A stretch of 50,419 bases of DNA from a candidate division WWE3 bacterium RIFCSPHIGHO2_02_FULL_38_14 (GTDB lineage: Bacteria; Patescibacteriota; WWE3; UBA101185; UBA10185): NCBI GenBank assembly GCA_001772865.1, contig MEVD01000003.1, positions 12,393-62,811 on the forward strand, written 5' to 3'. A program made the translations under genes and the position numbers. Of this stretch, positions 25,409 through 43,371 are shown in pieces (the stretch's first letter is position 1; every line of letters begins with the position of its first letter). The notes below the pieces were generated by a model that made no database searches, was not told the origin of the DNA, and was given only the letters and a program-made list of their open reading frames with translations.

Positions 25409-26503
25409 ATGCCTGATAAAAATCTTAAACCGTTAGACAAACAAACTACCGAAGAATATATATTTAAAGAACTTACCGCGTTGTCGGAAAAAGTAAACAA
25501 TACTTTGGGAATGCCTGAAGATTTACGCGAAAGGCTGGATCAAATGCTTAACAGGCTTAACAGAATGGCGAAACTTGGCCATTACGCCGCGGAATTTGAT
25601 ACTCTTTCAAGATATATTGATGTAGTAAGCATGATTCCCTGGGATAAAAAATCTGAGGATATACTGGATTTAGAGGCAACTAAAAAAGTGTTGGATAAGA
25701 ATCACTTCGGATTGGAAGATGTTAAAGAAAGGATGCTTGAATATTTGGCCACAATGATTCTGATAAAAAGCAGAGGAGGAGACGCAATCGCTAAATCTCC
25801 TGTACTTCTTTTCGTAGGATTGCAAGGTATAGGAAAAACTACTTTGGCGATGTCCATTGCGGAAGCACTTGGTAAAAAGTTTATTAGGATTGCTCTTGGT
25901 GCTATCGGGTCTACTCTAGAATTGAGGGGTAGAAGCAAAGTTTTTCCCGAAGCAGAGCCCGGTCAGATTATTAAAGCTTTGATGAGAACCGGAGTTATGA
26001 ATCCGGTTATACTGCTTGATGAATTAGAGAAATCCAGCGGAGAACACGGGTTGAGATCTGATGTTATGGCTACTCTGCTTGAAATTTTAGATCCGAACCA
26101 AAGCAATGAGTTCAGAGATCATTATATTGATTTTCCAGTTAATCTCTCACAGGTGCTATTTATTTGTTCGGCTAACAATACGGGAAATATTTCTACCGCA
26201 TTGATGGACAGAATGGAAGTAATAAAAATGCCTTCTTACACGGATGCAGAAAAAGCAGTTATAGCCAGAGATTACCTGCTTCCGAAAATTATTGAAAAAT
26301 CCGGACTCCGGGAAGGAGAGCTAGTGATTGACCCGAATTTATGGCCGGGAATTGTAAGGCCGTTCGGTTTCGATTCCGGAATCAGAAGTTTAGGCAGGAC
26401 TTTAGATAGTATTTGCAGAAAAGTGGCTAAAGAAATTGTTGAAGGTAAAACCAAACAAGTTTATTTAACCGCGGAGAACCTGAAATATTATCTTCCAAAG
26501 TAA
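25409..26503 (+). CDS. Lon-type AAA+ ATPase lacking both the N-terminal and peptidase domains
   Basis: The 364-residue protein aligns with the central ATPase part of Lon: the helical linker ending in SRYIDVVSMIPWDKKSED (near residues 66-84), LDKNHFGLEDVKERMLEYLA, Walker A GLQGIGKT at 137-144, Walker B VILLDELEK at 200-208, and the sensor-2 region GIRSLGRTLDSICRKVAKEI near 325. The N-terminal substrate domain is almost gone. The S16 peptidase domain with its Ser-Lys dyad is entirely absent: the stop comes soon after the AAA+ lid and the next 16 bases lead into another gene. It is therefore probably an unfoldase or remodelling ATPase, not a protease. No frameshift remnant is visible. Confidence 0.8.
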   Translation: MPDKNLKPLDKQTTEEYIFKELTALSEKVNNTLGMPEDLRERLDQMLNRLNRMAKLGHYAAEFDTLSRYIDVVSMIPWDKKSEDILDLEATKKVLDKNHFGLEDVKERMLEYLATMILIKSRGGDAIAKSPVLLFVGLQGIGKTTLAMSIAEALGKKFIRIALGAIGSTLELRGRSKVFPEAEPGQIIKALMRTGVMNPVILLDELEKSSGEHGLRSDVMATLLEILDPNQSNEFRDHYIDFPVNLSQVLFICSANNTGNISTALMDRMEVIKMPSYTDAEKAVIARDYLLPKIIEKSGLREGELVIDPNLWPGIVRPFGFDSGIRSLGRTLDSICRKVAKEIVEGKTKQVYLTAENLKYYLPK

Positions 26504-41840: not shown

Positions 41841-41869
41841 TTGACAACGTTCAAAGCAATATTTAGTAT
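41841..41869 (+). promoter_or_regulatory. Promoter of serS
   Basis: TTGACA (perfect -35), a 17-base spacer and TAGTAT form a good sigma-70-type promoter. Transcription should begin near 41876 and give a leader of about 188 bases. It is divergent from the infA promoter. Confidence 0.65.
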
Positions 41870-41875
41870 TATATC

Positions 41876-42063
41876 CATAATTTAAATGGCGTCAAAGAGG
41901 GAATTTCCGCCCTTTCAGCCGTTTGGGTGAACCTTTCCGCTTATAGGGAAAAAGTATTCCGAACCGGGGATGCCCGTTATAGCTGTAAATGAGTGATGCA
42001 TTAGGTGGCACCGTCATTAATTGAGATAATGACCCTGGCGAGAGAGCGGGGTTGTTTTTGTTT
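41876..42063 (+). promoter_or_regulatory. Candidate T-box leader upstream of serS
   Basis: The leader contains AGGTGGCACCG (42003-42013), the T-box consensus core GGUGGNACCG. In T-boxes the UGGN pairs with the NCCA end of uncharged tRNA; here N is C, which fits the G discriminator usual for tRNA-Ser. AATGA (41988-41992) can pair with TCATT (42014-42018) around the T-box bulge. The same bases can instead form GTCATTA/TAATGAC (42013-42019 with 42027-42033), an either/or pair typical of such switches. CCCTG/CGGGG followed by TTGTTTTTG (42033-42060) resembles a terminator just before the ATG. An upstream GGAAT/ATTCC stem could be stem I, with AGU at 41953-41955 as a possible specifier (uncertain). 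This fills the only gene-free stretch over 300 bases, together with the infA leader. Confidence 0.6.
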
Positions 42064-43371
42064 ATGTTGAACATAAAAAATATTAGAGAAAATGAAAATA
42101 TAGTTAGGAAAGCCATAAAGGATAAGCAGCTAGATAATAAAGTAGATTTGGACGAAGTTTTGAAAGTTGACGGAGAATATGTGTCAATTCTTCATAAAGT
42201 TGAATCAATTCGTGCTCTAAGAAATATTGAAACTAAAAACATTTCCAAAGTAGAAGGATCAGAAAGAAAAGATTTAATTGAAAAAGCAAATAAAACAAAA
42301 GAAGAGCTGAAAGAATTGGAAATAAAACTATCGAATATTACTGGAATCAGGGAGGATTTATTAAAAAAAATACCAAATCTTATACATGAGAGCGTTCCTT
42401 ACGGAATAGATGATTCTGAAAATGTTTCTATTAAAAAGTGGGGTGAGCCGAAAAAACTTGACTTTCCGCCAAGAGATCATATTGAATTGGGGAAATCTCT
42501 TGGGATTATAGATACGGAAAAAGCTTCTATAGTAGCCGGTACTAGATTCACATATTTATTTGGAGAAGCAACCCTAATGCAATTCGCGCTTATACAATTT
42601 GTTTTTGAGACACTAACTGATTCAAAAGTGATAAAAATGCTTGCTGAACAGGTAGGGAATCCAAATTTTGAAACATTTATTCCTGTATTGCCTCCGGTAA
42701 TGATTAGATCGGAAATTTTGGATAAAATGGACCGATTGGAGCCAAAAGAAGAGAGATACGTTCTTGATGAGGATAATCTAGTTCTTATAGGAAGTGCAGA
42801 ACACACTATGGGTCCGCTACATATGGATGAAATGATATCAAAAGAACAGCTGCCGAAAAGATACATAGGTTATTCAACTTCTTTTAGAAGAGAAGCGGGG
42901 AATTACGGAAAAGATGTACGGGGAATTTTCCGAGTTCACCAGTTTGATAAACTTGAAATGGAAAGTTTTACATCATCTCAAACAGGATTTGTTGAGCAGG
43001 ATTTTCTAGTAGCTGTTCAGGAATATATAGTCCAGAAGCTAGGGATTCCCTATCAGGTTGTAATGGTTTGTACAGGAGATATGGGCAAACCCGACTTCAG
43101 GCAAATTGATATAGAATGCTGGATGCCAGGACAGAATAAATACAGAGAAACACACACAAGTGATTATATGACAGACTATCAGTCAAGAAGATTAAACATA
43201 AAAGAAAAAAACGGAGATTTTGTACATATGAATGATGCGACTGCTTTAGCAATAGGCAGAACTTTGATTGCCATTTTGGAAAATTATCAACTGGAAGACG
43301 GAAGTGTGAAAGTTCCAAACGTGCTGCAAAAGTATTTAAATTTTAAAGATATAAAACCTAAAAAAAAGTAG
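42064..43371 (+). CDS. serS: Seryl-tRNA synthetase
   Basis: This class II synthetase charges tRNA-Ser. The 435 residues begin MLNIKNIRENENIVRKAI, the family's usual N-terminus, so ATG 42064 is chosen over an in-frame TTG 12 bases upstream inside the U-rich tract. The N-terminal coiled-coil arm (about 25-105) grips the long variable arm of the tRNA. The catalytic core shows YIGYSTSFRREAGNYGKDVRGIFRVHQFDK (motif 2 region) and, near the end, a motif-3 region with ATALAIGRTLIAILENYQ. It is preceded by a candidate T-box leader and followed 33 bases later by the spermidine-synthase-like gene. Confidence 0.95.
   Translation: MLNIKNIRENENIVRKAIKDKQLDNKVDLDEVLKVDGEYVSILHKVESIRALRNIETKNISKVEGSERKDLIEKANKTKEELKELEIKLSNITGIREDLLKKIPNLIHESVPYGIDDSENVSIKKWGEPKKLDFPPRDHIELGKSLGIIDTEKASIVAGTRFTYLFGEATLMQFALIQFVFETLTDSKVIKMLAEQVGNPNFETFIPVLPPVMIRSEILDKMDRLEPKEERYVLDEDNLVLIGSAEHTMGPLHMDEMISKEQLPKRYIGYSTSFRREAGNYGKDVRGIFRVHQFDKLEMESFTSSQTGFVEQDFLVAVQEYIVQKLGIPYQVVMVCTGDMGKPDFRQIDIECWMPGQNKYRETHTSDYMTDYQSRRLNIKEKNGDFVHMNDATALAIGRTLIAILENYQLEDGSVKVPNVLQKYLNFKDIKPKKK

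Follow-up and report, generated by a model that had tools for sequence, protein, structure and literature searches.

Does a bacterium of the Patescibacteria (CPR), the candidate division WWE3 bacterium RIFCSPHIGHO2_02_FULL_38_14, place its seryl-tRNA synthetase gene under the control of a tRNA-sensing RNA leader? T-boxes have been described mainly in Firmicutes and Actinobacteria, and a small number are known from Chloroflexi, Deinococcus and Proteobacteria (PMC2494555). A preliminary description of the 50,419-base stretch analysed here (the window, to whose plus strand all coordinates refer unless stated otherwise) proposed a T-box-like riboswitch in front of serS. The identity of the gene (42064-43371) is borne out by a match to TIGR00414 (390.9 bits against a cut-off of 301.65), and we consider its leader to be, with high probability, a T-box riboswitch that attenuates transcription and has an ultrashort Stem I.

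The Infernal comparison suggested in that description was positive: RF00230 aligned to 41883-42040 over its whole length (model positions 1-219 of 219), with 28.3 bits and E=1.7e-4 for 501 bases searched against 4227 Rfam families. Because 28.3 bits is below the curated gathering score of RF00230, which is 93, a standard annotation run leaves this leader blank, and no family passes in an Rfam scan of the window at gathering thresholds. The gathering score is a curator's cut-off rather than an anatomical feature; thresholds have been re-set in a study that lists the T-box as an exception (PMC12452182). The score falls so far short because Stem I of this leader lacks the upper half, with its elbow-binding IDTM, and carries the specifier in its terminal loop.

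Since MAFFT did not align the window correctly with relatives that are shorter, we built an independent covariance model, R1, without the window, which was kept as a blind test. The training set, from which every serS leader was likewise excluded, consisted of seven T-boxes from other related genomes, all preceding aspartyl/asparaginyl- or isoleucyl-tRNA synthetase genes. Within the 50,419 bases, R1 found a single match, again at 41883-42040 (E=1.3e-10), which, together with the full-length RF00230 match, upholds the proposed identity of the element. Furthermore, 93.7% of the cells were paired in the unfitted alignment of the seven relatives, compared with at most 47% when the partners were slid, and both sides had changed in 20 of the 27 pairs; none of 500 shuffles came as high. 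Among 68 matches, 96.4% of the cells pair, in an alignment that leans towards the model because it was fitted to it. Both Stem I helices of the serS element covary among relatives. A chance resemblance, or a plain terminator/promoter region of the divergent ribosomal-protein operon, might be read from the low Rfam score and from a promoter-like site on the minus strand of this region, but such a reading is at odds with the E-value of the independent model, with the presence of T-boxes before glyS, proS and valS in the same genome, and with a specifier and a bulge that both match serS. The independent model and the specifier and UGGN statistics described below refute it for practical purposes, and the probability that we leave to it is negligible.

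The architecture of the leader can be followed from its 5′ end. A promoter-like site (TTGACA-17-TAGTAT, 41841-41869), recognized by consensus match only (10/12 positions), predicts a transcription start at about 41876. Stem I (41886-41922; minimum-free-energy fold of -11.8 kcal/mol, covariation in relatives) is composed, according to the energy fold, of a base helix (41886-41890/41918-41922), an upper helix (41896-41901/41910-41915) and the terminal loop AAUUUCCG (41902-41909). It thus spans only ~37 bases and presents its codon in the terminal loop, rather than being a long Stem I with an IDTM and a specifier in a side bulge. The predicted specifier, missed in the preliminary description, is UCC (Ser) at 41906-41908, followed by G41909; the sequence, the presence of tRNA-Ser(GGA) in the genome and a position rule all indicate that it would pair with the anticodon GGA. 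As another candidate, UCA at 41915-41917 on the 3′ side of Stem I was rejected, because in relatives the same place belongs to a K-turn GGA/UGA regardless of the amino acid. In the serS Stem I, 41891-41895/41916-41917 read GUCAA/CA and not GAUGA/GA, and the tandem G.A pairs of a K-turn are absent. The 5′ strand of this K-turn, CGTCAA, is also the -35 box (TTGACG, minus strand) of the divergent promoter-like site (TTGACG-16-TATAAT, 11/12, window 41868-41895, minus strand), which faces infA and the ribosomal-protein operon, and this double use may be the reason for the degeneration of the K-turn.

Stem II, with its S-turn motif (UGAA.../...AGUA), occupies 41921-41964 (fold of -11.5 kcal/mol), aligns to Stem II of RF00230 and is able to compete with Stem I for 41921-41922. 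It is followed by the Stem IIA/B region CGGGGAUGCCCGUUA (41965-41979), identified from the RF00230 and R1 matches and the sequence, within which lies the F-box CCGUUA (41974-41979). A candidate for the Stem III purine string (RRRNG-Stem III-AA) is AAAUGAGUG (41987-41995), and Stem III itself is hardly present in the RF00230 alignment.

The antiterminator (42001-42038; fold of -6.6 kcal/mol), contained in both the RF00230 and R1 matches, comprises helix A1, UUAGG/CCUGG (42001-42005/42034-42038), the seven-base bulge UGGCACC (42006-42012) and helix A2, GTCATTA/TAATGAC (42013-42019/42027-42033), the helices being taken from the energy fold; the last pair of A2 is G-C instead of the usual G-U. The core GGTGGCACCG is indeed found where it was first seen (42004-42013), and the pairing suggested for its UGGC (42006-42009) with the GCCA end of tRNA-Ser holds as a prediction, given that the genome encodes four tRNA-Ser genes (anticodons GGA, CGA, UGA and GCU), all of which end in GCCA. 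The stems around this core need to be reassigned. The base helix of the antiterminator is A1 and not the AATGA/TCATT stem originally put in this role, and the GTCATTA/TAATGAC hairpin, although real, is A2 and not the competing terminator. The latter lies further 3′: the predicted intrinsic terminator (42031-42063) has, in the energy fold, the stem GACCCUG/CGGGGUU (42031-42037/42047-42053), after which GUUUUUGUUU extends to the ATG of serS at 42064, and the same layout precedes serS in two relatives (G002 and G006). Since both structures use 42031-42037, they are mutually exclusive. The folding energies favour the terminator when tRNA is left out of the calculation, at -9.7 kcal/mol for the bare 7-pair stem and -12.1 kcal/mol for the best fold of the stretch (z -2.74), compared with -6.6 kcal/mol for the antiterminator, which by itself shows no advantage over shuffled sequence (z -0.29).

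Sequence, family fit, covariation among relatives, the specifier and discriminator matches and the mutually overlapping folds are thus established for the serS leader, and from them tRNA binding, a response to charging and termination can be predicted. The transcript would begin near 41876, the loop at the tip of Stem I would offer UCC to the anticodon of tRNA-Ser(GGA), and Stem II with its S-turn, together with the IIA/B element, would hold the codon–anticodon pair, as in actinobacterial ileS T-boxes. The GCCA end of an uncharged tRNA-Ser would then pair with UGGC at 42006-42009 and stabilize the antiterminator, allowing RNA polymerase to continue into serS, whereas the end of a charged tRNA-Ser would be unable to pair, so that the more stable terminator would form from the shared strand and transcription would stop just before the start codon.

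A translational T-box, in which the 3′ hairpin hides the GGGG ribosome-binding sequence (42048-42051) instead of, or besides, terminating transcription, would agree with the end of the hairpin only ~10 bases before the ATG, with its containing the only G-rich stretch nearby, and with the mostly translational action of known ultrashort Stem I T-boxes (PMC7583486). However, a U-run directly follows the hairpin, and terminators with U-runs occur in 55/86 related T-boxes, as opposed to 2/86 after shuffling of the 3′ part; moreover, a distance of 12 bases to the ATG makes GGGG remote for a Shine-Dalgarno sequence, and in relatives the start codon is mostly found tens of bases past the terminator. 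We therefore regard a translational mode as improbable and retain transcription attenuation.

The serS leader is one of four T-boxes in its genome, the others preceding glyS (specifier GGC; UGGA facing UCCA), proS (CCC; UGGU facing ACCA) and valS (GUC; UGGU). A search of this genome with RF00230 recovered those of glyS and proS and missed that of serS, which, along with that of valS, was added by the lineage model. The examination of related genomes called for earlier was positive as well: serS T-boxes are present in two genomes of the same family (G002 and G006), two of the same class (G040 and G044), L179 (bacterium CSMAG_1234) and L207 (Ca. Gribaldobacteria), and the terminal loop of all six contains a Ser codon (UCC in G002, G006 and L179, UCA in L207, AGC in G040 and G044). 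The bulge reads UGGU in L179 and G006, where it would wobble with G73. The neighbours of this SerRS are almost all from Patescibacteria, which, together with a genome size of 0.94 Mb, points to this phylum. The distribution of serS T-boxes is patchy: in 78 of the 80 named SerRS relatives a T-box before serS is absent at E<=1. One could see in the low Rfam score, the degenerate K-turn and the almost absent Stem III the signs of a decayed T-box that has lost its response to tRNA. Yet the specifier, UGGC, both antiterminator helices, the terminator, the S-turn and the F-box are all intact, specifier and bulge would not stay matched to the gene under drift, and Stem III is missing in other T-boxes of the lineage, too. 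Decay is therefore very unlikely, and a working attenuator remains our reading of the leader.

Contrary to the initial view that T-boxes are exceptional here, RF00230 matches at E<=1e-5 occur in at least 116 of 380 genomes sampled evenly across the phylum, a minimum estimate, given that only few candidates were scored in each genome. At the same threshold, the only control genomes with matches belonged to Firmicutes, Deinococcus-Thermus and one actinobacterium. For phylum T-boxes with a synthetase downstream, the latter labelled by NCBIfam matches of cluster representatives and transferred within similarity clusters, a script picked the Stem I hairpin from pairing alone and read the codon four to two bases from the 3′ end of the loop. 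The codon at this fixed position agreed with the downstream synthetase in 42 of 82 cases, while permuted labels averaged 8.7 and reached at most 24 in 5000 rounds; many of the disagreements concern long Stem I forms or hairpins picked in error. With reference bases from the tRNAs of the serS-leader genome, the N of UGGN and the discriminator base are complementary in 77/83 T-boxes (permutation mean 31.4, maximum 49 in 10000). The terminator-like structures counted above (55/86) combine a stem with a T-run.

Several T-boxes from this survey stand before other genes or in unusual arrangements. At L064, L065 and L154, an AstE/AspA-like hydrolase gene is preceded by strong T-boxes (98-112 bits) that have a long Stem I and UAC (Tyr); L154 has two tRNA-Tyr genes further downstream. 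A trpD-like (glycosyltransferase family 3) gene follows the T-boxes at L018, L019, L067 and L072, whose Stem I is of an unusual, intermediate kind and whose specifier is probably UGG, and at L242 (minus strand, 1817-1643) a gene of the Glu/Leu/Phe/Val dehydrogenase family has a T-box in front of it whose apical loop contains UGG (Trp). Two consecutive matches precede one glyS on the minus strand of L253 (G210:C3:25376-25508 and 25541-25700). Finally, AAC (Asn) specifiers at L044, L046, L043 and L061 accompany genes whose cluster representative is an aspartate--tRNA(Asn) ligase; these genes encode either AsnRS or a non-discriminating AspRS sensed through tRNA-Asn.

In a sample of 161 T-boxes, which is not random because it was drawn from the best T-box matches, eight lie 42-61 bases upstream of a tRNA gene in the same orientation, which in every case encodes the tRNA cognate to the specifier (read by eye). 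They precede tRNA-His (CAC; L024 1501-1842 and L049 257-628), tRNA-Trp (UGG; L053 180-513), tRNA-Tyr (UAC; L312 51-462 and, on the minus strand, L335 1854-1526) and three successive tRNA-Arg genes (AGA; L309 51-595, where argS follows, and, on the minus strand, L311 1862-1273 and L314 2001-1401). All three Arg cases (L309, L311 and L314) contain TATAAT between the terminator and the first tRNA-Arg gene, which may represent a separate promoter. A literature search for a T-box governing the gene of its own ligand, covering few subscription journals, returned no report, which does not prove absence.

The serS element has the anatomy of the T-box family, without being a canonical class I or a canonical actinobacterial T-box. 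With the class I transcriptional T-boxes of RF00230 it shares the specifier codon of the synthetase, a UGGN bulge opposite the tRNA 3′ end, mutually exclusive antiterminator and terminator, the Stem II S-turn and the F-box, but its Stem I lacks the elbow-binding IDTM upper half and bears the specifier in the terminal loop, not in a side bulge. Firmicute serS T-boxes serve the identical gene and amino acid, with the specifier in a side bulge of a long Stem I, whereas Stem I is short here. Ultrashort Stem I forms have been described for translational T-boxes, mostly actinobacterial (PMC7583486), including those of ileS (Sherwood 2015, as cited in PMC7583486). The apical-loop specifier, the Stem II S-turn and the IIA/B element are common to the ileS T-boxes and the serS element; however, the former sequester the Shine-Dalgarno sequence and have no intrinsic terminator, while the latter has one with a U-run. 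In addition, the patescibacterial design belongs to another phylum and serves Ser, Gly, Pro, Val, Ile, Asp/Asn, Trp, Thr, Ala and Tyr synthetases. What sets the present form apart is that a terminator accompanies a short Stem I, the T-box family itself being already known. Our literature search combining T-box with CPR names found nothing relevant, in a scope of few subscription journals that excluded the contents of TBDB, and absence is not proved by it.

On balance, we lean towards the broader view that T-boxes are phylum-wide in Patescibacteria, that many of them combine an ultrashort Stem I with transcription termination, that they precede most synthetase genes, and that some regulate the gene for the very tRNA they sense (tRNA-Arg x3-argS, tRNA-His, -Trp and -Tyr). 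If this is true, an uncharged tRNA would raise its own transcription along with that of its synthetase. Most patescibacterial T-boxes are missed at standard Rfam thresholds. The ultrashort, terminator-linked form, a small RNA open to testing, calls into question the general need of transcriptional T-boxes for a long Stem I (PMC7583486). Present in at least 30% of the genomes sampled from a phylum whose members are tiny and mostly depend on hosts, these leaders suggest how such cells could match the supply of synthetases to host-derived amino acids without protein regulators.
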